Assembly (NCBI RefSeq): GCF_029625315.1
Contig: NZ_CP121110.1
Span: 4,818,501 to 4,882,500, forward strand
Length of the DNA stretch: 64,000 nucleotides
Reading direction: 5' to 3'
Source: Flavobacterium ginsengisoli
GTDB lineage: Bacteria; Bacteroidota; Bacteroidia; Flavobacteriales; Flavobacteriaceae
This document shows positions 1,454 to 61,340 of this stretch, piece after piece (positions within the stretch are counted from its first letter, which is position 1; the number at the start of each line of letters is the position of its first letter). The notes beneath the pieces were generated by a model that saw only the letters and a list, made by a program, of their open reading frames with translations, was not told the origin of the DNA and did no database searches. The translations under genes and the position numbers were made by a program.

Positions 1454-1862
1454 ATGACCAAAATTATTACAATAACTATTTTATTTATCTGCAGACTTAA
1501 TGTCTGCTCAAAATGTAAAATTAACTGTTGCCGTTTCAGGTTTGAAAAATGACATAGGAATCGTGAAAGTAGGATTATATAATTCAGACGGAACTTTCCT
1601 TAAAACAACTTACAAAAGTTTGGCTTCCGAAATTAAAGACAATAAAGCGGTTGTAACTTTTGATGATCTTCCAGCGGGAGAATATGCAATCTCAACGTAT
1701 CATGATGAAAATAGCAACGGAAAGCTTGACAGAAATGCAATGGGAGCTCCATCAGAAGAATATGCGACTTCAAACAATGCAAAAGGATTTATGGGATCTC
1801 CATCATATCAAGATGCTAAATTTAATGTCAGCAAAGATTCAAAAATTGAAATTGTATTCTAA
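1454..1862 (+). CDS. DUF2141 secreted protein (frame interrupted near 1495)
   Basis: A small secreted beta-sandwich protein of the DUF2141 family. The family hallmarks are visible: YHDENSNGKLDRNAMG followed by SNNAKGFMG and PSYQDAKF. The ATG at 1454 opens a typical signal peptide (MTKIITITILFIC), but this is one base out of frame with the mature part, which reads from the ATG at 1500. Removing the extra A at 1495 restores ...CSLMSAQNVKL, a normal signal peptide with a cleavage site after SAQ. The intact protein would be about 135 residues. It sits between the receptor and a TPR protein in the same apparent operon. Biochemical function is unknown; the frame break is probably a sequence error. 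Confidence 0.8.
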
Positions 1863-1911
1863 ATAAAACAAATAACTAATCCATATAAACAAACCATTAA
1901 TAACTTATAAA

Positions 1912-2532
1912 ATGAAAAAAATCATCACTTTAATTGCATTATTTGTAGCAGTAATAAGTTCAGCTCAAACACAATTTGAACAAGGAATGAACAAAGCATT
2001 CGGACTTTGGAAAGAAGGGAAAAATGCTGAAGCTTCGGCTTTATTCGAAAGAATTGCTGCGGCAGAAAAAAATAGCTATTTGCCAAATTATTATATTGCT
2101 ATGATCAATGCGACAGCTGTTTTTACAGAAAAAGACAAAACAAAAATCGATTTGTTATTGACAAAAGCGCAAGACGCCTTAGATCTTGAAATGATAAAAG
2201 ATCAAGCCAATTCAGAATTGTATGTTATGCAAGCCTTAATTTATACAGGATACGTTGTGGCTGACCCGATGACAAACGGAATGAAATATTCTGGCAAAGT
2301 AATGGAAGCTTACGCGAAAGCAAAAGCGCTGGATCCTACCAATCCGAGAGCGGTTTTTGGTGAAGCCGATTATCAATTAGGTGGTGCAAAATGGACAGGA
2401 GTAGATACAAAACCTTTATGCGCGCAAGTTGATAAATCTATTGAACTTTTTAATACTTTTAAACCAGCAACACCTTATTCTCCAAAATGGGGATTAGATA
2501 GAGCTTTAGAAATTCAAAAAACTTGTAAATAA
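1912..2532 (+). CDS. Secreted TPR-like protein
   Basis: 206 residues with an N-terminal signal peptide (MKKIITLIALFVAVISSAQ). The rest is alpha-helical with TPR-like spacing, for example EQGMNKAFGLWKEGKNAEA near residue 25 and AYAKAKALDPTNPRAVFGEA near residue 140. It is exported to the periplasm or cell surface and is likely a protein-interaction module. It starts 49 bases after the DUF2141 gene and ends 15 bases before the LytS kinase start, so it is probably cotranscribed with both. No enzymatic motif is visible. Homologues with this neighbourhood are common in Flavobacterium, but I know of no assigned role. Confidence 0.8.
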   Translation: MKKIITLIALFVAVISSAQTQFEQGMNKAFGLWKEGKNAEASALFERIAAAEKNSYLPNYYIAMINATAVFTEKDKTKIDLLLTKAQDALDLEMIKDQANSELYVMQALIYTGYVVADPMTNGMKYSGKVMEAYAKAKALDPTNPRAVFGEADYQLGGAKWTGVDTKPLCAQVDKSIELFNTFKPATPYSPKWGLDRALEIQKTCK

Positions 2533-2547
2533 TTCAGTATTATAAAT

Positions 2548-3888
2548 ATGATGATATTAAAACCTAATTTGTTAAAAGCATGCTTAGTTGGAGGAATAGT
2601 ATTTTTGTTCTCTTTTCTAATTCGGTTTGCCTCTTTAGGAACAGCAGTCTTTAACAAGAATCTTTACATTTATTTCTTGTACTGCATGCTTTACAGTGTG
2701 GTTTTATATATCGTAAATGTCGTTCTTTTTGATTTTTTAGATAGAGTATTCAGAGAAAATCCATATTCAGTAAAGAGAATTTTAATTGGTTTTGCAAGTT
2801 CTTTTTTAGTGTCGATGATCGTAATTGGAGTATTGCGTTTGTTTACAAGTGTAATAATCGAGAATAAGACAATTATTGGTTTTTTAGCAAATGAAAAGGC
2901 TGAAAATTATATAGAATCTGCAGTAATGACTTTTATTGTTTTATTGTTTTTTCACGGACTTAATTTTTATAAACTCTATCAGGAAAACAAAGTAACACAA
3001 CAAAAGATTATTGCGGGAACAGCAAATGCCAAATTTGAAAGCTTAAAAAACCAGATCGACCCGCATTTTCTTTTTAACAGCTTAAATGTTCTTAGTTCTT
3101 TAATAGAAGAAAATCCAGATAATGCGCAGCGTTTCACTACTTCATTATCTAAAATTTATCGATATGTTTTAGAACAGAAAGACAAAGAATTGGTTTCGGT
3201 TGAAGACGAATTGTCGTTTGCAAAAACCTATATGAATCTTCTGAAAATGCGTTTCGAAAATAGTTTGTTTTACGAATTGCCAACAGAAAACATTAACCCA
3301 GAAGCCAAAGTGGTGCCGCTTTCTTTACAGCTTTTATTAGAGAATACCGTAAAGCATAATGTGGTAAGTGAGCAAAAACCGCTTCATATTAGAATTTTTA
3401 TTGATAAAGATTATCTGGCCATTCAGAATGATCTTCAGAAAAAAGAAGTTTTGCAGGATAGGCAAGGTGTCGGACTGCAGAATATTGTAAACAGATACGG
3501 AATTATAACGGATAGAAAAGTGAAGATTGAGGAAGATGGAAAGAATTTCACTGTTAGAATTCCAATTTTAACCAAACAAATTGCAGTTATGGAAATGAGT
3601 GCAGAATATACCGACGAAGCAAAAGCTTATTATAGAGCCAAAAAACGTGTAGAAGAACTAAAAGGATTTTACGGAAATATAATTTCGTATTGCTGTGTGA
3701 TTCCGTTCTTGGTTTTTATCAATCTAAAATTTTCACTAGGATTTCAATGGTTTTGGTTTTCGGCTTTAGGCTGGGGATTTGGAGTTGCAATGCATGCTTT
3801 TAAAGTTTTTGGATACAGCTCTGATTGGGAAGAAAGAAAGATTCGAGAGATTTTAGAGAAAGATAACAAGCAAAAAACGTGGAAATAA
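2548..3888 (+). CDS. LytS-type sensor histidine kinase with C-terminal 2TM module
   Basis: 446 residues. Four hydrophobic helices occupy about 11-142, followed by a His_kinase (LytS/YehU) domain in which the phospho-accepting His is H173 in the DPHFLFNSLN motif. The N box is LLENTVKHN near 265 and a glycine motif QGVGLQNI follows near 310. Residues 350-440 form an extra 2TM domain: a charged RAKKRVEELKGFYGN helix, two membrane spans, then FKVFGYSSDWEERKIREILEK. The same 2TM unit is repeated as separate genes directly downstream, and a LytTR response regulator closes the group, so this is the kinase of that pair. The stop codon overlaps the next ATG (TAATG). The ligand is unknown. Confidence 0.92.
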   Translation: MMILKPNLLKACLVGGIVFLFSFLIRFASLGTAVFNKNLYIYFLYCMLYSVVLYIVNVVLFDFLDRVFRENPYSVKRILIGFASSFLVSMIVIGVLRLFTSVIIENKTIIGFLANEKAENYIESAVMTFIVLLFFHGLNFYKLYQENKVTQQKIIAGTANAKFESLKNQIDPHFLFNSLNVLSSLIEENPDNAQRFTTSLSKIYRYVLEQKDKELVSVEDELSFAKTYMNLLKMRFENSLFYELPTENINPEAKVVPLSLQLLLENTVKHNVVSEQKPLHIRIFIDKDYLAIQNDLQKKEVLQDRQGVGLQNIVNRYGIITDRKVKIEEDGKNFTVRIPILTKQIAVMEMSAEYTDEAKAYYRAKKRVEELKGFYGNIISYCCVIPFLVFINLKFSLGFQWFWFSALGWGFGVAMHAFKVFGYSSDWEERKIREILEKDNKQKTWK

Positions 3889-11861: not shown

Positions 11862-12943
11862 TTATTTCAAATGTACATCAACGTCAACGTTCATACCTGG
11901 TCTTAAAAGTTTTACTTTTTCAGGATCGTTTGATTCGTCTATACTAATTTTTACTGGTAATCTTTGAATTGTTTTTACGAAGTTTCCTGTTGCGTTATCA
12001 GGAGGTAATAATGAAAAACGAGATCCTGTAGCAGGAGAAAATGATGTTACAGTTCCTTTGAATTCATAGTTTGGATAAGCATCAACTTTTAAGCTTACTT
12101 TTTGTCCCACAACCATTTTGTTTAATTGTGTTTCTTTGAAGTTAGCCACAACCCAAGCTTCGTTATTATTAATAATGTAGAATAAAGATTGTCCTGGCTG
12201 CACCAATTGTCCTGGCTGAATATCAACTTTAGAAACCTGACCGTCAATAGCAGCTGTAACTACAGTATAAGAAAGGTTTAAGTGAGCAACATCAAGCATC
12301 GTTTTTGCTTTTTTGATATTTGCCAGCTGCAACTTCTGTTTGTTTGTCTGAAACTTTAGATTTTGACTGAATAACAGATTTTTGGTAAGAAGTAGCTTTT
12401 TGTTGTTGTTCTAAAACTCGTACTTGGTTTTCTGCTTCTTCTTTTGCTGTTAACGCCTGCTCATATTGTTGTTTTGTAATAGTATGAGTTTTGTACAGGT
12501 TATTGTAACGGTTATAATCGTTTGTAAGCTGTCTCAATCTAATTTTTGCACTTTCGATAGAACCGCTTGCAGATCTCATTTGAGCATCTGAAACAGAAAT
12601 ACTTGCATAAGCACTTCCAATATCAGCTTTTGCAGCTTCGTATTGACCTTCAGCTCCTAATAATGCAAGCATTAGCTTCATCAATCTTTAATTGGTAATC
12701 TCTCTTATCGATAGTAAATAAAGTATCTCCTTTTTTTACATAATCATTATCTTTCACATAAACTTTGCTAATATATCCTGAAACTCTTGGGATAATTGGA
12801 TTCATTTTTTTCTCGATCTGAGCATCGTCTGTTTCTTCGTGAGCTTGACCGTGTAAATATTTTGATATTCCGTAAGTTCCTCCCAATAAAACCATTACGG
12901 TTAGTATGATGATGAATTTTTTATTTGTCTTTTTCTTTTCCAT
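11862..12943 (-). CDS. emrA: EmrA/HlyD membrane fusion protein (two frame breaks)
   Basis: The adaptor of the EmrAB-TolC export system, about 360 residues if whole. Visible in three frames: an N-terminal anchor (KFIIILTVMVLLGGTYGI) and biotinyl-lipoyl half YISKVYVKDNDYVKKGDTLF; the long coiled-coil hairpin; and the C-terminal lipoyl half and barrel (AAIDGQVSKVDIQPGQLVQPGQSL). The first break is at 12665-12670 where GCAAGC replaces GCAGC (minus strand GCTTGC for GCTGC, restoring NAALLGAEG). The second is at 12322-12330 where an extra base splits GCAGCTGC (restoring VAAANIKKAK). Order is tolC-emrA-emrB on the minus strand. Likely functional in the organism. Confidence 0.88.
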
Positions 12944-12955: not shown

Positions 12956-14276
12956 TTATATTTTAGAAAGATTGAATGATTGTGATAATTGTCCTGATAC
13001 TGAAAGTAATTCGTAATATTTTTGAATAATTGTTGCTTTAGATAAAGCAGTTTGAATTTTGGCGTTTAAATGTTCTACATCCGCTTCTACCAAATCATTA
13101 GTGTCAGATAAACCGTTGTCAAATTTATCTTTAACTAATCTGTAATTTTCTGCAGCTTGCTGAAGTGCTTCATCATAAACAACACTTTGGTTGATTGCTA
13201 AGTCGTAATCTTCAATAGATTTCTGAACTTCAACCTTAATCTTGTCAGTCATAATAGCTTCAGTGTTTTTTATTTCAAGAGCTCTGCTTTCTGCTTCTTT
13301 AACATGCACATTGTTTTTTAGAATTCCAGATAAATCATAAGATAATCCGATTCCGAAATTCATAGCATATTTTACAGTAATAATATCTTTTAGATCTAAT
13401 GCCGTGTAACCACCAAGCAATGAAATCGCTGGGTAATATCCTGCTTTTGCTATTTTAATATTTGCTTCAGAAGCTTTTCCTTGTAATCTAACTGCTTCCA
13501 AATCTTTTCTATTTTCTAATGCTATAGCATCAGATGTTGGAGCATTGCTTGTTTTTAAATTAAAGAAATCTTCTTCGTTTACCTGAATTTTTACGCTAGG
13601 ATCTAATTTAAGCAACGTAGTTAGGTAGTAATTGATATTATTAATGTTATTATTGGCTTCATCAATAGATAATTGTGTTTTAGAAACCAACAACTGTGCT
13701 TTTAATAAATCATTTCTCGGAATGATTCCGTTTTTCTCCAACTCTGTAAAATCAGTAACACGTTGTTTTGCGCTTTTTTGGTTTTCATTTAAAACATCTA
13801 AAGTTTTTTGCGCTTTGTATAATGCCGTATAATAAGTGATTGTTTTTAAAGCAACATCTTCTTTTGTTTTAGCAAGCATTTGCACTTTCAGCTTCGTACA
13901 AATTGTCGTATGCATCGATGCTGCTTTGAATTTTAAATCCAGCAAAAATCGGTAAACTTAAATTTGCCATTCCTAACATAGCTCTGTCAGGAGAAGCTAG
14001 AGAAGCGCTTTCGCCTTGATTTGGCATATCAATCGACGCTTTGGTAAGACGCTGATATTGGCCAGAAATTTTAAGATCTGGGTATTGATTGTTTTTTACG
14101 GTTTTTAACTCGTATAGTTTTGTGTTTACCTTAGTATTGGCAAGCGTAACTTCGTTACTCTTTTCCCAAGCCATTTGTACGGCCTCGCCCAAGGTTAAAC
14201 TTGTTTTTTCTTGTGCTTCTGCTGAAGATATTCCGATGAAGAAAACTCCAAAGAGCATTAATTGACTAATTTTCAT
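12956..14276 (-). CDS. TolC family outer membrane channel (one frame break)
   Basis: About 440 residues if whole. It has a signal peptide (MKISQLMLFGVFFIGISSAEA) and TolC/OEP repeats rich in coiled coil: SLTLGEAVQMAWEKSNEVTLANTKV near the start and AKAGYYPAISLLGGYTAL in the second half. The frame breaks at 13872-13877, a GCAAGC (minus-strand GCTTGC); reading GCTGC restores YEAESANAAKTKEDVALK. I take the ATG at 14276; a TTG at 14282 is less likely. The 5' end overlaps the restored end of tetR by about 11 bases. It forms the outer-membrane exit duct for EmrAB. Confidence 0.88.
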
Positions 14277-21655: not shown

Positions 21656-22649
21656 TTATTTACTTAATTCTTGTAATTTCTGTAAAGCTGTTAATCCTTT
21701 TCCAGACAATAGGCTTTCTTTTGCTAATTCAAATCCTTCTTTTTGAGAGCATTTTGTAACGGTTGAAATTGCCATTGCAAGCATTGGCACAAACTACATT
21801 ATTTTGAGCTTCGTTTCCTTTTCCAGAAATGATATTCGTGAAAATTGCGAGAGATTCTTCAATTGTTTTTCCGCCTTCAATTTCTGTTTGCGATAAAAGA
21901 CGAACGCCAAAATCTTCTGGATTTAACATTCCTTCCATGTGGTTAGAAATTGTTTTTGTTGGACCAGTCAATGAAATTTCATCATATCCGTCAAGCGAAT
22001 GTAAGATCGTGAAATTGGTATTGGTGTTTTGATATAAATACGCATACATTCTCGCCAATTCTAAGTTGAAAACTCCAACCAATTGATTCTGTGGAAATGC
22101 TGGATTTACCATTGGACCTAACATATTAAAGAAGGTTTTTACCGCCAATTCTTTTCTAATTGGTCCAACATTTTTCATTGCTGGGTGGAATAGGGGAGCG
22201 TGCAAGACACAGATTCCAGCCTGATCAATACATTTTTCTAAAAATGATGGATCGTTGCTGAATTTAATTCCCATTTTTTCCATTACGTTGCTTGATCCAG
22301 AAATAGATGAAACTCCGTAATTTCCATGTTTTGCTACTTTTATTCCTGCTCCTGCAGATACAAAAGAGGCTAAAGTTGAAATATTGAAAGTGTCTTTTCC
22401 GTCACCGCCCGTTCCGCATAAATCGATTGTGTTGTAAGCTGATAAATCGACACGAATGCATAAATCCAATAAAGCTTCGCGAAAGCCCGAAAGTTCGTCA
22501 ATAGTAATGCTGCGCATCATAAAAACAGTCAAAAATGCCGAAATCTGACTTGGATTGTAGTGACCGCTTGAAATATTAATCAATACTTGTTTTGCTTCTT
22601 CTTTAGAAAGCACTTCGTGGTTGATTAATTTGTTTAATATAGTTTTCAT
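21656..22649 (-). CDS. trpD: Anthranilate phosphoribosyltransferase (one frame break)
   Basis: About 330 residues when joined. It transfers phosphoribosyl to anthranilate. Motifs: IDLCGTGGDGKDTFNIST (PRPP loop) near residue 76, KHGNYGVSSISGS near 106, HPAMKNVGPIRKELAVKTFFN near 160, and LDGYDEISLTGPT near 220. The frame breaks at 21777-21782, where GCAAGC (minus-strand GCTTGC) stands for GCAGC; repair gives CANAAMAISTVTKCSQKEG and a normal C-terminus ending ALQKLQELSK at 21656. Without repair the protein would end with a nonsense tail. Confidence 0.92.
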
Positions 22650-23956: not shown

Positions 23957-25357
23957 TAAATCTGTTCTGCCATTTCTAACGCTGTATTCAAGGCTCTCAA
24001 CTTATTGTAAACTTCTTGCATTTCACTTTCTTCGTCAGAACTTGCTACAATTCCAGCTCCTGCTTGACAATGCAATTGGTGATTTTTAGAAAGGAAAGTT
24101 CGAATCATAATCGCATGATTAAAGTTTCCGTCAAAATCCATAACTCCGATTGCGCCTCCATAGAAGTTACGATTTGTCTTTTCGCAATCTTCAATTAATT
24201 GCATAGCTCTGTGTTTTGGTGCTCCGCTTAAAGTTCCTGCTGGAAAAGTATCTGCTACGACTTGCATTGTTGTTGCTTTATCGTGTAAATGTCCTGTAAC
24301 TTTAGAAACTAAGTGAATTACGTGAGAGAAAAACTGAACTTCTCTGTATTTTTCTACATTTACATCATGTCCGTTTCTACTTAAATCGTTTCTCGCTAAA
24401 TCAACCAGCATAACGTGTTCACTGTTTTCTTTTTTATCTTCAGAAAGTTCTTTAGCTAAAAGTGCATCACGCTCATCATTTCCAGTTCTTTTGAAAGTTC
24501 CCGCAATTGGATGAATTTCGGCTTTTCTATCTTTTACGATAATTTGTGCTTCTGGTGAAGAACCGAATATTTTGAAATCTCCGTAATCAAAAAAGAATAA
24601 ATAAGGAGAAGGGTTAATGCTTCTTAAAGCTCTGTATACATTGAATTCATCTCCTTTGAAACCTTGAGTAAATCGTCGAGAAAGAACCAATTGAAAAACA
24701 TCTCCGCGATAGCAGTGTTTTTTGGCTAAAGCCACATTTGCTTTAAATTCTTCATCAGTCAAGTTAGAGAAACCTTCGCCTTCTTTAGAAAATTTATAAG
24801 AAGCAATATTTCTTGATTGCAATAATTGCTCGATTTCTGCAATATTATTTTTTCCGTCTAAACTGTGGCAGAAAATATAAGCTTCATTTTTAAAGTGGTT
24901 AATTGCAATAATGTTTTGATAAACAGCATAAAAAACATCTGGAATTGAAGTTGCATTGTCTTTTTTTGCAATAGATACTTTCTCGAAATAACGAACAGCG
25001 TCATAAGAAATGTATCCAAATAAACCGTTGTTGATGAATTTAAAATCGTTTTTTTCTGATTTGAATTGGCTTGAAAATTCCTGAATTACCTGAGGAATAT
25101 TTGTTGAAGCATCGATCACAGTTTTCTCAGAAGTTCCGTCAGGAAAAGTTTTTGAGATTGTCTCATTTTCGATTTTAATAGTAGCGATAGGATTGCAAGC
25201 AGATATAAGAGAAACTGTTATCATTTCCATGATAATCACTACTTTCTAGTAATAAACTATTTGGGAATTTATCTCTGATTTTAAAATAAATGCTTACTGG
25301 CGTTACTGTATCTGCCAGAATTTGTTTGTAATGTGTATTAAGAATAAAAGGTTTCAA
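23956..25357 (-). CDS. trpE: Anthranilate synthase component I (one frame break)
   Basis: About 467 residues when joined. It converts chorismate to anthranilate with TrpG. The N-part runs KPFILNTHYKQILADTVTPVSIY; the C-part holds the chorismate-binding core: YLFFFDYGDFKIFGSSPEAQI, PIAGTFKRTG, DERDALLAKELSEDKKE, HVMLVDLARND and TFPAGTLSGAPKHRAM. The frame breaks at 25195-25200 where GCAAGC stands for GCAGC; repair gives FSYICCNPIATIKIE. The likely start is the TTG at 25357; no in-frame ATG exists upstream, and the earlier TTG at 25429 lies inside the attenuator stem. The residues around the break (LLES-S-D) form part of the Trp feedback site in this family. Confidence 0.92.
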
Positions 25358-25402: not shown

Positions 25403-25433
25403 AAAAAAAAGGGCTTGTCGTGATGACAAGCCC
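25403..25433 (-). terminator. trp attenuator hairpin
   Basis: GACAAGCCC pairs with GGGCTTGTC (25425-25433 and 25411-25419, 9-bp perfect stem, 5-base loop) and, on the minus strand, runs straight into eight T residues (25410-25403). It lies between the Trp-rich leader peptide and trpE, the position of a transcription attenuator. Confidence 0.85.
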
Positions 25434-25475
25434 TTTATATTTTTATATTTCTTACAATACCATAGGAAGCTTCGT

Positions 25476-25532
25476 TCACGACGTCTGACGTAAATTGCTC
25501 CACCACCAAGTATTGTTTAAAATTGTTCTCAT
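25476..25532 (-). CDS. trpL: trp operon leader peptide
   Basis: An 18-residue open frame reading MRTILNNTWWWSNLRQTS then TGA. It has three consecutive Trp codons (TGG at 25508-25500), the hallmark of attenuation control by charged tRNA-Trp. The stop lies 43 bases before the attenuator stem. A TATCTTTG -7 element ends about 19 bases upstream, so the leader RNA would begin close to its ATG. Stalling at the Trp codons would be expected to favour an antiterminator pairing; I can see the terminator clearly but did not resolve the alternative fold. Too short for usual gene callers. Confidence 0.82.
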   Translation of the reverse strand: MRTILNNTWWWSNLRQTS

Positions 25533-25550
25533 TTCTTTATTTTGATGTGA

Positions 25551-25558
25551 CAAAGATA
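25551..25558 (-). promoter_or_regulatory. Candidate -7 element for the trp operon
   Basis: TATCTTTG on the minus strand fits the Bacteroidota TAnnTTTG -7 consensus and ends 19 bases before the trpL ATG. A matching -33 TTG at the usual distance is not evident, so confidence is moderate. Confidence 0.45.
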
Positions 25559-27142: not shown

Positions 27143-27710
27143 TTAGAATTTTAAAGCTACTGTCAATTCAAATTCGTCATTGATAGTTTTATCTCCTAAA
27201 CCGTCGAAGAAGCTACCTGAACCGTATTTAATATCGTATTTAGTTCTGTCAACTTTGAAAGCAGTTGTAGCAGTGTTTCCTTTTACAGTGATATCAAAAG
27301 TTACTGGTTTAGTAATTCCTTTGATAGTTAAATCTGCAGTTACAGTATAAACGTCAGCAGATTTTGCACCGATAGTTTTGAAAACTAATTTTGAAGTTGG
27401 GAATTTGTCAGTTCCGAAGAAATCGTCAGCTTTTAAGTGACCGTTTAATTTTCCTTGGTATTCTCCAGTTAAATCTGTAGAAGTTAATGAAGTCATATCA
27501 ACTGTAAAGTTACCACCAGCTAATTTTTTTCCTTTGAAAACTAAAGAACCTTCTTTAAAGTTTACAGTTCCAGAGTGCTCTCCAGTTACTTTTTTACCTA
27601 CCCATTTAATTGTAGATGCTTTTACGTCGATTTTTTTAGTTTGAGCGTTTACTGAGATTCCAGCTGCTTGCTACGAATAATGCTATTGCAATAGTTTTTA
27701 AATTTTTCAT
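27143..27710 (-). CDS. YceI family periplasmic protein (one frame break)
   Basis: About 188 residues when joined. The ATG at 27710 opens a signal peptide MKNLKTIAIALFVA. The frame breaks at 27666-27671 where GCTTGC stands for GCTGC; on the coding strand GCAGCAGCTGG restores VAAAGISVNAQ and a normal signal cleavage. The mature lipocalin-like barrel follows: STIKWVGKKVTGEHSGTVNF, NFTVDMTSLT, FPTSKLVFKTIGA, VTADLTIKGITKPVTFDITVKG. YceI proteins bind polyprenoid or amphiphilic ligands. It is the third gene of an operon with a MarR regulator and a nitroreductase, a common grouping for quinone or electrophile stress. Confidence 0.9.
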
Positions 27711-32623: not shown

Positions 32624-34040
32624 TTATTTTAATACTTTGCTTTGACAAACAAAATCTGATTTTGGAACATTGGTTTTAGAAATTGCTCCGAAACCACCTT
32701 CAACCTCAGAGAAATTTCTGAAGCCTCTTGCTTGAAGGATAGAAGCCGCAATCATACTTCTGTAACCTCCTGCGCAATGCAGATAAAAATGCTCATTTGG
32801 ATTAATGTCTTTTACCCAATCATTAATATAAGCGAGAGGTTTGCTGTAAGCATCGTCAATATGTTCTGCTTCGTATTCTGTTTCTTTACGAATATCTATT
32901 ACTTTGTCTTCGCCAAGTTTAAATTCATTAGCAAATTGCTCTGCTGTAATTCGGTTTACAGTGTCAATTTCGAAACCTGCATTTTGCCAAGCTTCAAAAC
33001 CGCCTTCCAAATGTCCGATAATCGTATCAAAACCTATACGGCTTAAACGAGTTACAGTTTCTTCTTCCATACCAGCAGCAGTAACCAATATAATTGGCTG
33101 TTTTACATCGGCAATTAAAGTTCCAACCCACGGTGCAAAATCACCGTTGATTCCAATATTTATAGACTGCGGAATAAATCCTTTACTGAAATCAGCAAGC
33201 ACTTCTTGTGTCTAGAATTAAAGCGCCAGTTTCTTCAGCTACAGCTTCAAAATCTTTTACGTTTATAGCTTTCATTCCGTTGTTTAAAACAGTCTCAAAA
33301 CTTTCATAGCCACCTTTGTTCATCGCGACATTCATGCTGAAATAGGCAGGAGGAGGTAATAAACCGTCAGTAACTTCTTTGATGAATTCTTCTTCGGTCA
33401 TATTAGCGCGTAAAGCATAATTGGTCGCTTTTTGATTTCCAATAGTAGAAACAGTTTCTTTGCTCATGTTTTTTCCGCAAGCACTTCCCGCACCATGCGC
33501 TGGGTAAACGATTACGTCATCAGCCAAAGTCATGATTTTATCTCTTAACGAATGATATAAAATTCCAGCTAATTGATCTTGTGTCATTCCAGCGGCTTTT
33601 TGAGCTAAATCTGGACGTCCAACATCTCCAATAAACAAAGTGTCTCCAGAGAAAATGGCGTGATCTTTTCCGTTTTCGTCAATCAGTAAAAAAGTAGTGC
33701 TTTCCATAGTATGTCCTGGAGTGTGCAATACTTTAATAGTTATTTTTCCGATTTTAAATTCCTGTCCGTCTTTTGCAGAAATGCAGTCAAATTCGCAGGC
33801 AGCATTTGGTCCGTAAACAATTGGAGCTCCAGTTTCTTTGCTTAAATCAACGTGACCCGAAACGAAATCGGCGTGAAAATGCGTTTCAAAAATATATTTT
33901 AGTTTAACGCCATCACGCTCTAAACGATCCAGATAAGGCTGAATTTCTCTAAGCGGATCAATAATGGCCGCTTCACCATTTGAAGTGATATAGTATGCAC
34001 CTTGAGCAAGGCATCCGGTGTAAATTTGTTCTATTTTCAT
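32624..34040 (-). CDS. MBL-fold persulfide dioxygenase-rhodanese fusion, CstB-like (one frame break)
   Basis: About 471 residues when joined. Residues 1-230 are a metallo-beta-lactamase domain of the ETHE1/CstB type: FETHFHADFVSGH, HTPGHTMEST, FSGDTLFIGDVGRPDLAQ and VYPAHGAGSACG. Two rhodanese domains follow; the first lacks the catalytic Cys (LVTAAGMEEE), the second has it (YLHCAGGYRS). The frame breaks at 33195-33200, GCAAGC for GCAGC, repaired to LDTRSAADFSKGFIP at the entry of the first rhodanese domain. It oxidises or transfers persulfide sulfur in the cytoplasm and heads the group with two YeeE transporters. Two dyads upstream suggest regulation by a Crp/Fnr-type protein. Confidence 0.9.
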
Positions 34041-35124: not shown

Positions 35125-36471
35125 ATGGAAGAAATGCTCTTTTATGATCGAATGCAATTTGCCTTCACGATCACCTTTCATTATCTTTTTCCACAACTTA
35201 CAATGGGTCTTTCGTTGATCATTGTGTACTTCAAGTGGAAATATCTCAAAACTAAAGACGAACAATACAATCACGCCACCCATTTCTGGATGAAAATCTT
35301 CGCCCTCAATTTTGCAATGGGCGTTGTAACCGAATTCCGATGGAGTTTCAGTTTGGAACCAATTGGGCAAAATTCTCCGAACTTACTGGAGGAATCATTG
35401 GCCAGACATTGGCGATGGAAGGAATGTTCTCGTTCTTCCTAGAATCTTCTTTTCTTGGATTATTTTTGTTCGGAGAAAAACTACTCGGGCATAAATGGCA
35501 TTTTGTAACGGGATTGCTAATTATGATTGGTTCGTGGGCGAGCGGTTACCTAATTATTGCCACACATTCTTGGATGCAGAATCCTGTGGGTTACGAAATC
35601 TTAGAAAATGGAAAATTTGTATTGAATAATTTTCAAGCTTTATTCTTAAATCCTTGGCTTTGGCCTTCTTATCTGCACAATCAAGTCGCTTCTTTGGTAA
35701 CGAGTTCTTTTATTGTTGCTGGAATTGGAGCTTTCTATATTTTAAGTAAAAAGAATGTTGATTTCGGAAAATTATTCCTTAAGACGGGAGTAATCTTCGG
35801 ATTGATTTCGAGTGTTATTGTGGCTGTTCCAACAGGAGATTTATTGGCTAAAAATGTAGTGAAATACCAACCGGTAACTTTTGTCTGCGATGGAAGGAAT
35901 TTTTCATACCGAAAAGAAAGGTTCTGAAATTGTCTTAATCGGTCAGCCTGATGTAAAAGATAAAAAATTGGATAATAAAATCGCTGTTCCAAACATTCTA
36001 AGTTTCCTGACTTATGGAAACTGGGATCAGGAAATAAAAGGTTTAGATCAGTTTGAAGAAGACTTGCATCCAACGAATATTTCTGGATTGTATTATGCCT
36101 ATCATATTATGGTTGGACTCGGAACGGTTTTTATTGGACTGATGGTGCTTTCGCTTTTCCAATTAATTAGAGGAAAATTGTTTGAAACCAAATGGATTTT
36201 ATGGTCTCTGATGTTCATGATGCCGTTTCCGTACATTGCCAATACAACAGGCTGGTACACGGCCGAATTAGGAAGACAGCCTTGGTTGGTTTATAATTTA
36301 CTGAGAACGGCAGCTGGAGCTTCGCCAACGGTTTCTTCTGGAAACACCTTATTTACTCTACTCGGTTTTATTGGTTTATACCTTTTACTGGGAATGCTGT
36401 TTTTACTTTTAGTTGGGAAAATTATCAATAAAGGTCCTCGTCATGTGGAACTTTCAACAGAAAAAATATAA
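35125..36471 (+). CDS. cydA: Cytochrome bd ubiquinol oxidase subunit I (two frame breaks)
   Basis: About 448 residues when joined. Membrane quinol oxidase subunit that binds hemes b558, b595 and d. Motifs: MEEMLFYDRMQFAFTITFHYLFPQL with the His ligand H19, then MEFQFGTNWAKFS, and GWYTAELGRQPW near the C-terminus. The first break is near 35332: one missing G (ACCGGAATTCC read as ACCGAATTCC) restores VVTGIPMEFQFG. The second is at 35883-35888: GTCTGC for GCTGC, restoring VTFAAMEGIFHTE at the conserved Q-loop region. It starts at 35125, 26 bases past a -7 box, and ends two bases before cydB. Confidence 0.92.
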
Positions 36472-39859: not shown

Positions 39860-40645
39860 TTAGAAAAAAACTTCTTTAGCAATGATATAAAATCCCATTA
39901 CAAGAACAAACCAGCCAAAGAGGGGTTTTAATTTTGCGCCATCAATTTTTTTAGAAAGTTGGCTTCCAACAAACATTCCGATTAAGGCCATTGCAGAAAC
40001 GCTTAGTAAGAAAGTGTAATTTATAGCTGTTCCGATGTATAAATCGCCTGCAAAACCAAGTGAAGAATTAATAGTAATGATTAACAATGAAGTTCCAACC
40101 GCTTGCTTCATTGGTAAATTGGCGAAAAAAAGCAAGGCAGGAATAATTAAAAATCCGCCACCAGCGCCTAGAAATCCAGTTACGATTCCGACCAAAAAGC
40201 CAATCAAACTCAATCGCGAATAATTGGGTTCTGCTAATTTTATTTCGGGCTGATTTTTTTAATCATCGAAATTGCTCGCCGTAATCATTAGAATCGAAAA
40301 GATAATCATAATCAGAAAATCTTTTGAAACGGTATAAGAAGCAACAGAAAATAGCGTTGCCGCAATTTGCGGAAATATAACTTCGCGTATAATTAAAATT
40401 GAAACAATTGAAGGAATAGCAAAATACAAAGCCGATTTCAGCTTCAAATTTCCCATTTTATAATGGCTGTAACTTCCAAATAAAGACGTTAAGCCAACAA
40501 TGAATAAAGAATAAGAAGTCGCCTGATCGGGATTCACTTTAAATAAATAAACTAAAATTGGAATAGTCAAAATAGAACCGCCACCGCCAATTAAGCCAAG
40601 TGTGATTCCGATTATGATTGAGGCAAAAAATCCTAAATATTCCAT
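39860..40645 (-). CDS. TauE/SafE sulfite exporter family protein (in-frame stop)
   Basis: About 261 residues if read through. Two homologous four-helix halves: the N half has GLIGGGGSILTIPILVYLF and the C half has GFLGAGGGFLIIPALLFFANLPMKQAVGTSL, the duplicated GxGGG signature of TauE/SafE anion exporters. A TAA at 40259-40261 separates the halves in the same frame (ASNFDD-stop-KNQPEIKLAEP), so this is a nonsense codon rather than a frame shift; a T for A in the neighbouring A run would explain it. It may be a sequence error or true inactivation. It lies next to a Crp/Fnr regulator, and a shared dyad precedes it. Confidence 0.82.
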
Positions 40646-44194: not shown

Positions 44195-46073
44195 ATGAAA
44201 AAGAAATTTTTGCAGTTTGCATTAATAGCATTTGTTTTTTTTGCCCAAAATAGCTTTGCACAAGAGCTTTATATGCCTAGAAACATAAAAAAAGCTTATG
44301 AGAACGGCACACGTTCTAAAGATGGAAAACCTGGTGCAAACTATTGGCAGAACCGTGGAAAATATAACATGGAAATTTCAGTTGATCCAAAAACAAGATT
44401 AGTCAGCGGGACTGAAAGTATTATTTACGAAAACAATAGCAAGGATACTTTAAGAAACTTAGTGATCCGTTTTGTAAATAATCTGCATAAACCTTCTTCT
44501 CCAAGAGGTGGTGAAGTAAGCAACGATTTTTTAAGCGATGGATTAACGATCACTTCATTAAAAATTGAAAATGAAGTTTACAAAGAAGACGCTAAAAATT
44601 GGGGAACTGTTGGAAATGTGAAATTGCAAAAACCAATTTTACCAAATTCAAAAACAATTATTAATATTCAGTGGAATTATCCTTTGTCTAAAGAAAGTGG
44701 TAGAGAAGGGCAGATTGACGAAACAACATTTTTTGTAGCCTACAGTTATCCTCGCGTTTCTGTTTTTGATGATTATAACGGATGGGATAGATTAGCGCAT
44801 ACAGACCGTCAAGAATTTTACAATGATTTCAACGATTACATTTTTTCTGTAAAAGCACCTAAAAATTATGTGGTGTATGCAACAGGAGATTTGTTAAATC
44901 CAGATGAGGTTTTACAACCTGAATTTGCTTCACGCTTAAAAAAATCATACACAACAGATGAAATTTTGCATATCGCTAATGAGCAAGAAATGAAAAGTGG
45001 TGTTGTAACGAAACAATACGATTGGAATATCTGGAAATTTGAAGCGAAAAACATCTCTGATGTTTGCTTTGGTTTAAGCGATCACTATTTATGGGATGCT
45101 AGCAGTGTTGTAGTAGATAAGAAAACAAATCGTCGTGCAAGTATTCAGGCAACCTATAATGTTAAAGGAACTGATTTTGTAAACTCAGTAAAAAATAACC
45201 AGTATGCTTTAGACTGGTTTTCTAACAATTGGCCAGGAGTTCCGTATCCGTTTTCTAAAATGACAGCTTTTCAGGGTTTCGCAGATATGGAATATCCTAT
45301 GATGTGTAACGATTCTCAGATGGATGACCCTGTTTTTGCACAATTAGTTCAAGACCACGAAGTAGCTCATACCTATTTCCCGTTTTATATGGGAATTAAC
45401 GAAACTCGTTATGCATTTATGGATGAAGGTTGGGCAACAACTTTTGAGTATTTAATTGGAATTGCTGAGCATGGAAAAGAAGCGAGCAGATAAATTTTAC
45501 CAAGATTTTAGAGTAAAAAGTTATATTAAGGATCGTTCTGCAGAGCAAGATCAGCCTATTATAACAATGTCAACTCAGGTTTCTGGAGCTGGTTATGGAA
45601 ATAATTCTTATGGTAAAGCTTCTCTATCTTACTTAGCTTTGAAAGATATGTTGGGAGATGATATGTTTAAAAAAGCACTTCATTTTTATATGGATACTTG
45701 GAACGGGAAACATCCAATTCCTTGGGATTACTTTAATTCATTTAATACAGCAACAGGAAAGAATTTAAATTGGTTTTTCAATAATTGGTTCTTTACAAAC
45801 AATTATTTAGATATTGCAGTAAAGGGCCTTTCTGCCGATAAGAAAACTATAACAGTAGAAAATATTGGAGGCTTTGCAATTCCGTTTGATGTTGTAATTA
45901 CTTATGCAGATAAATCGAAAGCAATTGTACATCAAACACCCGCTATTTGGGAAAAAAATGAGAAAATAGCGAAGATAGTTTTGAAAAGCACAAAAAAAAT
46001 AGAAAAAATAGAACTTGATGGAGGAATTTTCATGGATGCAACTCCAGAAAACAATATTTTTTATGTTAAATAA
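44195..46073 (+). CDS. M1 family metallopeptidase 2 (one frame break)
   Basis: About 625 residues when joined. Signal peptide ending SFAQ. The zinc motif HEVAH lies in QDHEVAHTYFPFYMG near residue 390, with the third ligand in FMDEGWATTFEY 22 residues on; the GXMEN equivalent is FADMEYPMM. The frame breaks at 45482-45487: GCGAGC for GCAGC, restoring EHGKEAADKFYQDFRVK. The C-terminal part ends in a beta domain (VVITYADKSKAIVHQ). Exported aminopeptidase-type enzyme, much longer than the one at 15026 and only distantly similar. It stands alone with a terminator behind it. Confidence 0.9.
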
Positions 46074-49895: not shown

Positions 49896-52800
49896 ATGTT
49901 TAATAAATTTATTCAAAGACCTGTTCTTTCGATAGTGATATCGTTGATTATTGTCTTTTTAGGGATATTGTCGGTTTTAAATTTACCAATTACACAATTC
50001 CCGACAATTTCACCTCCAATGGTTAACGTTACGGCAGATTATCCTGGATCTAACGGTGAGTTGATGATCAAGGCAGTTGTTATTCCTTTGGAAAGAGCCT
50101 TAAATGGTGTTCCGGGAATGAAATATATGGCTTCAGATGCTGGAAACGATGGTGAAGCAACAATCAAAGTAGTTTTTAACTTAGGTACAGATCCTAACCA
50201 AGCAAGCAATTAACGTTCAGAACCGTGTGGCTTCTGTTACCAATAAACTTCCTCCTTTGGTAATTCGTGAGGGTATTAAAATTACGAGAGAAGTACCGAG
50301 TATGTTGATGTACGTGAACCTTTACAGTACAGACAAAAATACCGACATGAAGTTCTTGTATAACTATGCCGATATTAACGTACTTTCTGAATTAAAAAGG
50401 GTAAATGGTATTGGTTCTGGAGATATCTTAGGAACACGTGAATATGCAATGCGTATCTGGTTAAAACCGGACCGTATGTTGGCTTATAAAATTTCTGCTG
50501 ATGAGGTAATGGAAGCATTATCAAGTCAGAGTTTGGAAGCTTCTCCTGGTAAAACGGGTGAAAGTTCTGGTAAACGTTCTCAAGCATTCGAATATGTATT
50601 GAAATATTCTGGGCGTTATACAACAAAAGAGCAATATGAGAATATTGTGGTAAAAGCAAATCCAAATGGAGAGCTTTTGAGATTGAAAGATGTTGCTAAA
50701 GTTGAATTTGGAAGCTCGATGTATGATATCTATTCTAATTTGAATGGAAAACCATCTGCAGCGATCGTATTAAAACAATCTTTTGGAAGTAATGCGAATC
50801 AGGTTATTGAAGAGGTAAAAGCAAAACTGGAAAAAATCAAACAAAGATTTCCAAAAGGAATGGATTACGAAATTTCATATGACGTTTCTAAATTCCTTGA
50901 TGCTTCTATCGAAAAAGTAATCCATACTTTGGTTGAAGCTTTCATTCTGGTAGGTCTAGTAGTTTTCCTTTTCTTAGGAGACTGGCGTTCTACGGTTATT
51001 CCGGCTATCGCGGTTCCTGTATCATTGGTAGGAACGTTTGTGTTCATGACATTCTTTGATATTTCGTTGAACTTAATTACGCTATTTGCACTTGTATTAG
51101 CGATTGGGGTCGTGGTCGATGATGCGATTGTGGTTATTGAGGCCGTCCACGCCAAGATGGAAGAAGAACATCTCTCGCCATTTAAAGCAACTAAACAAGC
51201 CATGCACGAGATTGCGGGAGCTATTATTGCAATTACATTCTTAATGGCCGCAGTATTTATTCCGGTTGCGTTCATGTCGGGACCTGTTGGAGTATTCTAC
51301 AGACAATTCTCTGTAACTATGGCAACTGCGATTATTCTTTCTGGTATTGTGGCCTTGACCTTAACGCCTGCGCTTTGTGCGATGATGTTAAAAAATAATC
51401 ACGGCGTACCTAAAAAGAAAACTCCTGCAAATAGATTTATTGATGCTTTCAACGAAAAATTCAATTTAGCACAAGGTAAATATCAAAACCTATTAGGTAA
51501 AATTGTTGACAGAAGAGTGGTTACAATTGTAGCGCTTTTAGGTTTCTGTGCTGGAACATGGATCATTAGTAGCAATGTTCCTTCTGGTTTTATTCCGAAT
51601 GAGGACCAAGGAATGTTTTATGCTGTAATTCAGACACCACCAGGTTCATCTTTAGAAAGAACTAATAGTATTGCAGAACGAGTTCAAAAAATTGCAGAAG
51701 ATATTGATGGAGTAAAATCGGTTTCTTCATTGGCAGGTTATGAGATTTTATCTGAAGGTACAGGATCGAACTCTGGAACTTGTTTGGTTAACCTTAAAGA
51801 CTGGAGCGATAGAAAAGAATCTGTTTTGGAGATCATGCATGAAATGGAGGAAAAATGTAAAGATATTACAGGAGCTAATATCGAATTTTTCCAACCGCCT
51901 GCTGTACCAGGATATGGTGCTGCTGGAGGATTTGAGCTTCGTTTACTAGATAAAACAGGTTCTGTAGATTACAAGAAAATGGAACAGGTAAATAATGAGT
52001 TTGTGGCTGAATTAAATAAACAGCCAGAATTGTCAAACGTATTTAGTTTCTACAGTTCTAGTTTCCCTCAGTACATGATGAAAGTTGATAATGACTTGGC
52101 ACAGCAAAAAGGAGTTTCTATTGAAAATGCCATGAATACGCTGTCAACTCTTGTGGGAAGTAATTACGAAATCAGTTTTATTAAATTTGGTATTAACTAT
52201 AAAGTAATTGTTCAGGCTTCGCCAGAATATCGTGCACAGCCAGATGATATCTTGAAATTGTATGTTAAAAACGACCGTGATGAAATGGTGCCTTATTCTG
52301 CTTTTATGAAATTAGAAAAAGTGTATGGACTTTCAGAAATCACACGTCATAACATGTATACCTCAACACAAATTAGTGGTTCGCCAGCTCCAGGATTTAG
52401 TTCTGGTACAGCAATTAAAGTGATTCAGAAAGTAGTCGCTGAAAAGTTACCAAGAGGATATGACATTGACTGGGCAGGTATTTCTGCCGATGAGGTGGCA
52501 CAAGGTAATCAAGCTATTTGGGTATTCTTAATCTGTTTAGGATTCGTTTACTTGGTATTAGCGACTCAATACGAAAGTTTTATTTTGCCATTGTCAGTAA
52601 TTCTTTCTTTACCAGCGGGTATTTTTGGAGCTTTCCTTTTATTGAAATTAACAGGATTAGAAAACAATATCTATGCTCAGGTTGCCATGGTAATGCTTAT
52701 CGGTTTATTAGGTAAGAATGCCGTGTTGATTGTCGAGTTTGCGATCCAGAGACATGCAGCAGGAAAATCTGTTTTGGATGCAACGAATGGAAGGAGCAAA

Positions 52801-53065: not shown

Positions 53066-54512
53066 AGTTAAAACATATCAATATAGTATTGTATTAGCCG
53101 CATGTCTAGCAGTTGCAGGGTGTAAAACCCCTGCACCTGAAGCAGCAGTAACTACAAGTACGCCAGTTCCTGATTCGTTTGGTGCAACTGTTCAAACACA
53201 AGATGCAAACAATAATACAGCTAAGCATTAAACTGGAAAGATTATTTTAAAGATCAGAATCTAGTTGATTTAATTGATGTCGCTCTTAAAAATAACCAAG
53301 AACTAAATATTACTTTACAGGAAATAGAAATCGCAAAGAATGATATTCGTGTAAAAAAAGGACTTTTACTGCCAACTGCAGGTTTACGTGCTGGAGCTGG
53401 AGTAGAAAAAGTGGGTAGATATACAAGTCAAGGAGCGGGTGATGCTACAACTGAAATTAAACCAGGTAAAGAGATGCCAGATCCGCTTGGAGATTTTACT
53501 ATTGCCGCTTATGCAAACTGGGAAGTAGATATTTGGAAAAAACTTCGCAATTCTAAAAAAGCAGACTTTAAATAGATATTTGGCGACTGTTGAAGGTAAA
53601 AATTTTGTTATTACAAACCTTATTGCCGAAGTTGCCGATTCGTATTATGAATTATTAGCTTTAGATAATCAATTAGATATTGTAAAACAAACTATCAAAT
53701 TGCAAACTAATGCTTTAGAAATTGTAAAAGTTCAAAAACAAGCCGCAAGAGCAACAGAACTTGGAGTTAAGAAATTTGAAGCTGAGGTTTTAACTTCGCA
53801 AAGTATGGAGTTTGATATCTTACAGCAGATAAAAGAAACAGAAAACAAGATCAACTTTTTGCTTGGAAGATATCCGCAGGAAATTAAAAGAACAAGTAAT
53901 ACTAATTTCTTAAGTCTTTTACCAGCGGCTGTAAGTTCTGGAATTCCTTCTCAATTGTTAGAGAATCGTCCAGATGTAAAACAAGCAGAACTAGAATTAG
54001 TAGCAACAAAATTAGATGTAAAAGTAGCTCGTGCTGAGTTTTATCCTTCTTTGGATATTACAGCCGCAATTGGGGTAAATGCTTTCAAACCTTCTTATTT
54101 GTTTACAATGCCAGAATCGCTATTGTACTCATTGGCAGGAGATCTTGTTGCGCCTTTGATTAATAGAAATGCAATTAAAGCAGAGTTTGCAAGTGCAAAT
54201 GCAAGACAAATTCAAGCATTATACAATTACGATCGTACGGTTTTAAATGCTTATTTAGAAGTGTCAAATCAAATGTCTAAGATTGAGAATCTTCAAAAAG
54301 GTTACGATCTTAAATCAAAACAAGTTGATGCCTTAAATACTTCTATTGACGTTTCAAACGATTTGTTTAAATCGGCAAGAGTAGATTATTTCGAAGTTTT
54401 AATGACGCAGAGAGATGCATTAGAAGCTAAATTGGAATTAATCGATACTAAAAAAGAACAATTAAATGCTGCAGTCCATGTTTACAGAGACTTGGGCGGT
54501 GGATGGAAATAA
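53058..54512 (+). CDS. Outer membrane efflux lipoprotein, NodT/TolC type (two frame breaks)
   Basis: About 484 residues when joined. The ATG at 53058 opens a lipoprotein signal (AACLAVAGC). The mature protein has two OEP repeats: LVDLIDVALKNNQELNITLQEIEIAK and LLENRPDVKQAELELVATKLDVKVARAEFYPSLDI, ending YRDLGGGWK as usual for NodT-like channels. The first break is at about 53219-53226 (CAGCTAAGC), the second at 53561-53566 where GCAGAC stands for GCAGC, restoring NSKKAALNRYLATVEG. The third member of the RND operon, forming the outer-membrane exit. Confidence 0.9.
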
Positions 54513-59541: not shown

Positions 59542-59907
59542 ATGAAAAAGCTTCTCTTACTATTAATCGTTTTATGCACCGTAAGCTGTAAAAAATATGT
59601 TGTCTCATTTGAACAGCCAACCGATATGAAATTGGACAATTTAAAACTAGAAGTATTTCTGGATAAAGAGAAAGTTCAAGATATTAATTTAAAAGCAACA
59701 GAGGCATTGCCAACTTACGAAACAGTTGGACTATCGACCTCTAGTGAAGGAAAACATTTGCTTCAAGTGAAAGTAAGAGATACAACCTTTAATTTTGAGG
59801 TGAAATATCCCGAAGAAAAATATATCATGATGACGACTCATTTAAAAACCAATGGAAAGATTCATGTTGGAATTTTAAAACAGAATTATAAATATAGATT
59901 TCGTTAA
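59542..59907 (+). CDS. Hypothetical lipoprotein
   Basis: 121 residues. Signal peptide with lipobox VLCTVSC at residue 16; the rest reads as a small beta-rich domain (EQPTDMKLDNLKLEVFLDKEKVQDINLKATE, then HLLQVKVRDTTFNFEVKYPEEKYIMMTTHLKTNGKIHVGIL). The pattern resembles small Bacteroidota lipoproteins that carry one immunoglobulin-like sandwich. Not recognised as a named family. It is followed by a terminator shared with the GH1 gene. Confidence 0.7.
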   Translation: MKKLLLLLIVLCTVSCKKYVVSFEQPTDMKLDNLKLEVFLDKEKVQDINLKATEALPTYETVGLSTSSEGKHLLQVKVRDTTFNFEVKYPEEKYIMMTTHLKTNGKIHVGILKQNYKYRFR

Positions 59908-59927
59908 AAGATAATCTTATTTCAAAT

Positions 59928-59966
59928 AAAAAAGCCTTTCGCAATTATTAGTACGAAAGGCTTTTT
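59928..59966. terminator. Bidirectional terminator
   Basis: GCCTTTCG (59934-59941) pairs with CGAAAGGC (59954-59961) with A and T tracts on both sides, between convergent genes. Confidence 0.8.
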
Positions 59967-59986
59967 CTATTTTTTGAGAATAGGTT

Positions 59987-61340
59987 TTAAGATAAAAAGT
60001 CTTTAAACCACAACCCTGAATTTTTAATAGTACGTTTTTGTGTTTCGAAATCGACATGAATCAACCCAAAGCGAGCATTGTATCCTTCAGCCCATTCAAA
60101 ATTATCAGTTAGAGTCCAGACAAAATAACCATCGACATTTAAACCGTCTTGTTTGGCTTTTAAAATCTGCTCTAAATGATCCTGAATGTAGTGCGTCCGT
60201 TTTATATCATGAACTTTTCCATTTTTTACAGTATCAGGAAAAGCGGCACCATTTTCAGTTACAATGATTTTTCTGATTCCGTCATATTCATTAAACTTTT
60301 TAAGAATATGATACATTGCTGGCGGATAAACTTCCCAACCCATATCGGTAGAAATTACATTTCGTTTTTCGGCACTTACTAATTCTGCACCAATATACGG
60401 AATCAGCATTGCCGATTTTACAACTTCACGAGTATAACATTGCAAACCAATAAAATCAAAATCGAAATCGAGATTATTTAAATCGCCTTCTAAAATGTAA
60501 TTATTAAGTTTTTTAAGAACTGGAAGATCTTTCTGCGGATAACCTAATCCTAAAATAGGTTCTATAAAAGTTCGGTTTAATAAAGTATCTACACGTTTAG
60601 CAAACTTCGACATCTTTTGAGTTTTCTGTTGCAGGTTCGATATGCGTGCACGAAAATGTAGTTCCGATATTAGAATCCGAAATTCGCTCTCGAATTATTT
60701 TAGCTCCAGCTGCAGTTGCCAAAGTAACATGATGCATGGCTTTTAGGTAATTTGTAATTCCTTTTTTGCCTGGCGCGTGAATACCTAAAAAATAACCTGC
60801 TCCCGTAAATACGGAAGGTTCGTTAATGACCATCCAGTTTTTGACACGATCGCCAAAATACTGTACACAGACTTCGACATAATCTTTAAACCACGAAACA
60901 GATTCTCGGTTTGTCCAACCTCCTTTTACTTCCAGATCATGTGGTAAATCCCAGTGATAAAGAGTTATCCAAGGTTCGATTCCAGAAGCCAGTAGCGAAT
61001 CTATGATTTTATTGTAATAATCGATTCCCGCTTGGTTTACAGGATGAACACCAGTTGGCATAATTCTGGGCCAGCTGATAGAAAATCTAAAATTAGGAAT
61101 ATTAAGTTCCTTAATTAGATTAATATCGTCCTGATAAGAGTTGTAGAAATCGCAGGCGGTTATGGCATGATGACCGTTTTTAATTTTTCCTTTTTGAGAA
61201 GTAAAAACATCCCAGATAGAAGAACCTTTTCCGTCCGAATCATGCGCACCTTCAATTTGGAAAGCGGCAGTTGAGACACCCCACAAGAAATCTTCACCAA
61301 ATTGGTTTTTATTCAGAAATGAGCTTTCGACTTTATTCAT
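59987..61340 (-). CDS. Family GH1 beta-glucosidase (one frame break)
   Basis: About 451 residues when joined, normal for GH1. FLWGVSTAAFQIEGAHDSDGKG at the N-terminus, acid/base Glu in WMVINEPSVF near 170 and nucleophile Glu in KIIVTENGAAFPD in the C-part, then YFVWTLTDNFEWAEGYNARFGL. The frame breaks at 60600-60605 (GCAAAC forward, GTTTGC on the coding strand); deletion of a base gives DVE(V/A)AKRVDTLLNR. Hydrolyses beta-glucosides and related oligosaccharides in the cytoplasm; no signal peptide. Isolated gene, with no transporter or regulator beside it. Confidence 0.92.

Follow-up and report, generated by a model that had tools for sequence, protein, structure and literature searches.

In the 64,000-nucleotide stretch of the Flavobacterium ginsengisoli chromosome analyzed here (the window, G000:C1:4818501-4882500 of a one-contig genome of 5,414,540 bases), conserved genes are interrupted by frame breaks, many of which lie at the five-base motif GCWGC (W being A or T). 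Comparison with two related strains placed the changes at this motif on the side of the window assembly. In all likelihood, the breaks at GCWGC are consensus errors that arose because the motif is modified and was misread by the base caller, with an orphan HhaI-like methyltransferase being responsible for the modification. The preliminary description of the window had proposed systematic miscalling at modified GCWGC as the cause; the asymmetry of the changes between assemblies and the presence of a plausible methyltransferase support that proposal, while the methylation itself is what we infer from them.

Changes at GCWGC in the window and around the chromosome

As a reference we used Flavobacterium sp. 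IB48, the nearest relative in a scan with one of the methyltransferases of the window genome, which also showed close relatives of that enzyme in many Flavobacterium. IB48 is listed as the same species, is 98% identical over a 5-kilobase (kb) piece of the window and, judging by its SPAdes-type NODE titles, would represent short-read data; listed completeness is 95.5% for the window-genome assembly and 100% for IB48. A 400-kb region comprising the window and its surroundings was aligned to 400 kb of IB48, which gave 17 one-to-one blocks, amounting to 365 kb with 5115 mismatched bases. A third strain, ACN2, was used to polarize the changes (297 kb fetched, covering 233 kb of IB48 at 89% identity). 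Sequence composition was determined in twenty scattered 20-kb samples around the chromosome of the window genome, and in 40 kb of each of the other genomes.

Within the window, 21 IB48 frames of at least 120 amino acids (aa) are interrupted by 27 frame-shifting insertions or deletions (indels), in agreement with the preliminary count of about 20 split genes. All 12 breaks to which a GCWGC had been assigned align to a GCWGC of IB48, each with a length difference; the window itself lacks the motif at 11 of the 12 intervals, and 12322-12330 still holds one. Together with three further cases, at 40277, 52785 and 60603, these make up the 15 of the 50 window indels that fall on the motif or on the base after it (P 7e-18), and 15 of the 27 that shift the frame. 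The concentration of breaks at GCWGC is confirmed and had been understated. Other sequences account for 35 of the 50 indels, and for 12 of the 27 that shift the frame. Sites that had been quoted as intact are indeed so, but the positions given are off by as much as a few bases, the sites being at 10286, 19176, 50758 and 54468. Altogether, of the 80 GCWGC sites of IB48 in the window region, 38 are intact, 29 are substituted and 13 have an indel inside the five bases.

Over the 365 kb, the window assembly keeps 231 of the 505 GCWGC sites of IB48 and differs at 274, whereas in the reverse direction 29 of 260 window-assembly sites differ in IB48, only one of them by an indel (Fisher P 8e-34). The 274 changes comprise 182 substitutions and 92 indels, so that the commoner class, by a factor of two, is invisible to a frame-based reading. 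GCAGC/GCTGC ranked first for indels among the 511 five-mers having 20 sites or more (P 5e-129), without the motif having been preselected, and its six-base extensions occupied ranks 1-3. Moreover, 96 of 246 indels touch GCWGC, as compared to 2.7 expected and a maximum of 9 in 1000 random draws. Of 141 GCWGC sites shared by ACN2 and IB48, 70 are different in the window assembly; of 78 shared by ACN2 and the window assembly, 7 are different in IB48. The change lies on the window-assembly side. The earlier view of a site-specific but incomplete systematic error, in excess of what random positions would give, is upheld by this asymmetry toward a close relative and by its polarization with the third strain. 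In terms of genes, 104 of the 274 fully aligned IB48 frames (at least 120 aa) carry a frame-shifting indel in the window assembly, and 69 have at least one at GCWGC; the 147 frame-shifting indels of these frames divide into 91 at GCWGC, 10 at CCGG and 46 at other sequences.

The scattered samples extend the same GCWGC shortage around the chromosome: the window genome has 0.72 sites per kb, with an observed-to-expected ratio (O/E) of 0.61, as compared to 1.35 per kb and 0.92 in IB48, while GCGAC/GTCGC, a misread form of the motif, is in excess (O/E 1.36, against 1.00 in IB48). Read in the GCAGC orientation, GCGAC is in fact the commonest misreading (79 of the 505 sites), followed by GCGGC (43), by the insertions GCAGAC (26), GCAAGC (25) and GCGAGC (24) at about equal frequency, by GCAAC (17) and by rarer forms; GCTTGC/GCAAGC, which had been thought to lead, does not. 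Misreadings fall mostly on motif positions 3 and 4, the latter pairing with the first motif cytosine on the complementary strand, and forms consisting only of a C-to-T or G-to-A change are few (GCAAC 17, ACAGC 8, GTAGC 3). The flanks within 6 bases on each side predict the outcome at a site (cross-validated area under the receiver operating characteristic curve 0.80), A/T-rich flanks failing more often. Changed sites are unclustered along the chromosome (runs z 0.03). Regional protection was considered, as the proportion of changed sites is lower where another GCWGC lies within 10 base pairs (22 of 60 versus 252 of 445), yet it was rejected given that lack of clustering. Outside the selected open frames 12 of 16 sites are changed, versus 262 of 489 inside, the outside sites being too few to compare.

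Several motifs served as controls. GATC, GCGC, CCWGG and GCWTC/GAWGC are near-symmetric between the assemblies, and the polarized counts for GCSGC (S being C or G; 4 of 42), GCWTC/GAWGC (22 of 684), GCGC (17 of 157) and CCWGG (3 of 83) closely match the reverse direction. A second motif does stand out, as indels occur at 8 of 45 CCCGG/CCGGG sites versus 10 of 1747 other CCC/GGG runs; CCGG outside CCC/GGG runs shows no excess (4 of 150 versus 7 of 152). Runs of A or T form a second error class, unrelated to GCWGC: over the 365 kb, runs of 8 are shorter in the window assembly 26 times and in IB48 once, runs of 7 are so 11 versus 3 times, and runs of 4-6 are balanced (counts up to 8).

The interrupted genes of the window include trpD, a trpE-family gene, a cytochrome bd-family gene and parts of efflux pumps. 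Names were given to the 13 frames with a GCWGC break, among the 21 interrupted, using the families of the intact IB48 frames; each break listed was located by alignment to a GCWGC of IB48.

1491..1496: GCWGC frame break, DUF2141 gene
12322..12330: GCWGC frame break, efflux periplasmic adaptor family gene
12665..12670: GCWGC frame break, the second in the efflux periplasmic adaptor family gene of 12322..12330
13872..13877: GCWGC frame break, outer membrane efflux protein (PF02321)
21777..21782: GCWGC frame break, trpD
25195..25200: GCWGC frame break, trpE family (anthranilate synthase component I; below the NCBIfam curated cut-off)
27666..27671: GCWGC frame break, YceI-like protein
33195..33200: GCWGC frame break, metallo-hydrolase/rhodanese-like protein (below curated cut-offs)
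35883..35888: GCWGC frame break, cytochrome bd oxidase subunit I family (below the curated cut-off)
40277..40277: GCWGC frame break beyond the earlier list, TauE/SafE exporter gene
45482..45487: GCWGC frame break, peptidase M1 domain protein
50202..50207: GCWGC frame break, AcrB/AcrD/AcrF-family transporter
52785..52785: GCWGC frame break beyond the earlier list, AcrB/AcrD/AcrF-family transporter of 50202..50207
53561..53566: GCWGC frame break, outer membrane efflux protein (PF02321)
60603..60603: GCWGC frame break beyond the earlier list, glycoside hydrolase family 1

Upstream of the trpE-family gene, a Bacteroidete tryptophan peptide leader RNA was also observed (RF01692, 71.3 bits; 25425-25552, minus strand).

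Methyltransferases of the genome and their partners in relatives

Five methyltransferase families were searched for in the window genome (PF00145, PF01555, PF02086, PF02384 and PF07669). PF01555 and PF02086 had no match there. PF02384 gave two weak matches over the cut-off and PF07669 also two; one shared match is PrmC (TIGR03534, over the cut-off), another is a TrmN-like tRNA methyltransferase (NF047853, 244.5 bits, below the cut-off of 350), and the remaining one, without an NCBIfam match, resembles a small-molecule methyltransferase by eye. PF00145 identified two methyltransferases. Downstream of one lies an HpaII-family nuclease (PF09561, E 1.5e-93), because of which a CCGG target is expected for that methyltransferase:

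L001:1306-3629 (G000:C1 near 3188600): HpaII-type restriction-modification pair, PF00145 and PF09561

The error footprint at CCGG is weaker than that at GCWGC and confined to CCCGG/CCGGG. The other methyltransferase is encoded outside the window (G000:C1:4007468-4008451, minus strand) and its gene overlaps a convergent gene for the mismatch endonuclease Vsr (TIGR00632, 145.8 bits, cut-off 97.85; PF03852, 101.7 bits, cut-off 27). PF00145 covers it nearly in full (E 8.6e-85, residues 6-313 of 328), and its best match among solved structures is M.HhaI (E 3.1e-56, residues 9-311), a GCGC enzyme. The search that had been suggested for a matching methyltransferase has in this way produced a plausible candidate: elimination among the searched families leaves the Vsr-linked enzyme as the putative GCWGC methyltransferase, to which the error motif and the partners at its locus also point. 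The segment CPTLTANMGTGGHNVP, which we take to be part of the recognition region, is by eye identical in this enzyme and in its relatives at L023, L026, L033, L034 and L036. The arrangement resembles dcm-vsr of Escherichia coli, in which a solitary C5 methyltransferase gene adjoins a Vsr gene, but differs in the predicted motif, in the convergent and overlapping orientation of the genes, and in leaving no Vsr footprint in sequence composition.

We then compared 33 loci whose methyltransferase is at least 80% identical to the Vsr-linked enzyme, with approximately 3 kb of flank per locus. In all 33, ribE lies upstream, and in 32 Vsr lies downstream. A VOC-family gene adjoins Vsr in the window genome (L003 versus L156, G000:C1:4000001-4020000) and was not found within 3 kb in IB48 and several relatives, which suggests insertions at the methyltransferase-Vsr locus. 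In six of the 33 loci (L023:3980-5206, and L024, L025, L026, L028 and L039), a 408-aa protein is encoded between methyltransferase and Vsr. The NgoFVII B3-like DNA-binding domain PF20731 was found in 27 of 27 aligned members of its family, two of them from these loci; the L023 protein matches the PADLOC type II nuclease model REase_II (E 2.5e-115), and NCBI names for members are 'restriction endonuclease' or 'phospholipase D-like domain-containing protein'. As the B3-like domain is the only Pfam domain found, the label 'PLD/B3-type' was rejected. CglI and NgoAVII, which have B3-like domains, are described as recognizing GCCGC, and their relative BceSIV as recognizing GCWGC (PMC4267653), so that the 408-aa protein provides suggestive, though not conclusive, support for a GC-N-GC target independently of the errors.

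An unannotated protein of 243-253 aa is encoded in five of the 33 loci and in four of five further Bacteroidota loci with 64-71% identity (L033, L034, L035 and, in part, L037; not L038). In these four, its gene is convergent with that of the methyltransferase, overlapping it or within approximately 260 bases, and the flanking DNA examined contains no homologue of the window-genome Vsr. Representatives of this 250-aa family are:

L033:3959-4720: unannotated 250-aa family
L023:5669-6400: unannotated 250-aa family
L026:5653-6384: unannotated 250-aa family
L034:4029-4763: unannotated 250-aa family

Among 930 candidates, 637 were homologues at E 1e-5 or better. No convincing Pfam match was obtained for 62 aligned members (scattered matches, none better than E 0.024). 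Four members compared with NCBIfam had no match, and the one PDB match was at chance level (E 0.46); PADLOC gave one weak match (E 0.0063) in one of two members. In UniRef, the F. aquicola member is named 'Restriction endonuclease' and another 'YqaJ viral recombinase domain-containing'. The family occurs in 14 of 250 Flavobacterium genomes, all 14 being among the 41 with a related methyltransferase (E 1e-60 or better). The 250-aa protein is a candidate cognate nuclease of the methyltransferase. Sequence searches found neither the 408-aa nor the 250-aa nuclease in the window genome; the 250-aa profile did match 14 other genomes, and an empty search without a positive control is no proof of absence. 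As neither was found, the window-genome methyltransferase looks like an orphan accompanied by Vsr.

Origin of the changes

Nanopore consensus sequences typically show both shortened homopolymers and errors at modified motifs. The changes at GCWGC are probably systematic errors of this kind, and the assembly would be a long-read one, most likely built from nanopore reads only. The bacterium would methylate GCWGC, most likely at the first cytosine and on both strands, by means of the orphan HhaI-like C5 methyltransferase paired with Vsr. In most reads the signal, shifted by the modified base, would lead the base caller to a wrong call at the motif centre, and this majority call would survive polishing. 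Neighbouring bases would decide which sites are misread and whether the result is a substitution, an inserted base or a lost one; the intact GCWGC sites may have been correctly read or may be unmethylated. Two motifs being hit matches the two PF00145 methyltransferases, with CCCGG fitting the enzyme beside the HpaII-family nuclease.

A comparable case is described for Listeria monocytogenes ST87, in which nanopore errors at GCAGC/GCTGC remained after polishing and were ascribed to an untrained modification, with M.BatI named as a known GCWGC enzyme (PMC10687267). The motif and the persistence of systematic errors through polishing are the same, the phylum is different, and in the Flavobacterium assembly indels make up one third of the changes (92 of 274) and hence break frames. 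According to their reports, M.BatI (PMC8936443) and M.Pin25611FIII of Prevotella intermedia (PMC5608340) are orphan C5 enzymes for GCWGC, their mark being assigned to the first cytosine by bisulfite data; in P. intermedia, protection is reported for just 66% of the examined sites (n = 11) (PMC5608340), and M.BatI is described as prophage-borne and as also marking one strand of GCSGC (PMC8936443). M.AbaBS3I of Chloroflexi is reported to place N4-methylcytosine at GCWGC (PMC6329791). Set beside these descriptions, the Flavobacterium enzyme, near ribE and Vsr in almost all of the relatives compared, is unlike the prophage-borne M.BatI. GCSGC as a second target finds little echo here, polarized substitutions being nearly normal (4 of 42 versus 6 of 44 in reverse). 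Judged by titles and the beginnings of abstracts, the literature searches listed no paper on GCWGC in Flavobacterium or on Vsr with GCWGC, and nothing matched Flavobacterium combined with nanopore, methylation and 'systematic errors'.

Other explanations were weighed against the same data. A base caller that handles GCWGC badly without any modification would also produce the dependence on flanks, as would any purely sequence-driven error; but over half of the sites of one five-mer differ while polarized GCSGC, GCWTC/GAWGC, GCGC and CCWGG match the reverse direction, and the two motifs hit are met by two PF00145 methyltransferases, one beside an HpaII-type nuclease, which makes this explanation very unlikely. 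We regard it as unlikely, if less so, that the errors are modification-driven but stem from another enzyme or mark, namely N4-methylcytosine, N6-methyladenine or an unlisted family. The Vsr-linked enzyme was, after all, singled out by elimination and neighbourhood among five families, and the Chloroflexi enzyme for N4-methylcytosine at this motif is a verified one (PMC6329791). Nevertheless, two of the families searched are empty, the PF02384/PF07669 matches include PrmC and the TrmN-like protein, the candidate best matches M.HhaI, and the nuclease with an NgoFVII-type domain adjoins it in six of 33 relatives. Real mutation, by a strain decaying or hypermutating at GCWGC, is hardly credible: deamination of 5-methylcytosine does mutate methylated sites, but 69 of 274 fully aligned frames would then carry a GCWGC frameshift, trpD and the trpE-family gene included, the spectrum is one of swapped and inserted bases in the centre of the motif, deamination-type forms being few, and A/T runs of 8 are shortened in the window assembly as well.

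Some observations weigh against methylation of GCWGC by the Vsr-linked C5 enzyme. The motif can carry N4-methylcytosine instead, as reported for Chloroflexi (PMC6329791). Four closed genomes with a related enzyme (G044, G084, G087 and G104, of one or two contigs) have no clear error footprint in the 40 kb sampled from each; that would be expected only of genomes that were polished or sequenced on a different platform. GCSGC has indels at 5 of 216 sites versus 0 of 245 in reverse, which strict W specificity does not explain. An asymmetry is seen for the control CAGCT/AGCTG, too (31 of 207 versus 9 of 185); as CAGCT/AGCTG overlaps GCWGC in GCAGCT/AGCTGC, it is not a clean control. The 408-aa family has no match among solved structures, R.NgoAVII included, even when searched as a 27-member profile, so its link to CglI and BceSIV rests on one shared domain. 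A Vsr footprint is likewise absent: GTWGC/GCWAC has an O/E of 1.05 in IB48, 1.05 in methyltransferase-positive drafts and 1.07 in genomes without the enzyme. Action of Vsr on deaminated GCWGC would be expected to deplete GTWGC and enrich GCWGC, and neither was seen, the latter standing at 0.92 in IB48. In comparisons limited to 40 kb per genome and to differing lineages, the O/E of GCWGC was 0.80 in six drafts with the enzyme (pooled), 0.90 in the four closed genomes and 0.92 in IB48, versus 1.05 in ten genomes without it; in drafts G037 (0.56) and G059 (0.72) the low GCWGC is not accompanied by a clear GCGAC excess.

Consequences for the genome and the enzyme family

Extrapolated from the aligned sample to the whole genome, about 7,300 GCWGC sites would be expected, of which about 4,000 would differ in this assembly, about 430 of them by natural divergence. 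Genes that look broken in the assembly are not to be counted as pseudogenes, and protein sets as well as pairwise identities would be distorted by the errors. As a phenomenon, nanopore miscalling at GCWGC is known, and the Flavobacterium case is well supported as an instance of that known kind, since both the Listeria errors and GCWGC methyltransferases have been published; the new leads are its occurrence in Flavobacterium and the unannotated 250-aa family. It is possible, if slightly doubtful, that HhaI-like GCWGC methyltransferases are partnered by a new restriction endonuclease family, that of the 250-aa protein, to which the errors led as a methylation footprint, and that one soil Flavobacterium lineage lost the nuclease while keeping methyltransferase and Vsr, which would form a fixed orphan pair like dcm-vsr but for another motif. 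Overall, a finished assembly and a close relative can together reveal a likely methylated motif, and here the footprint points to a predicted methyltransferase-Vsr pair and to a candidate nuclease family.

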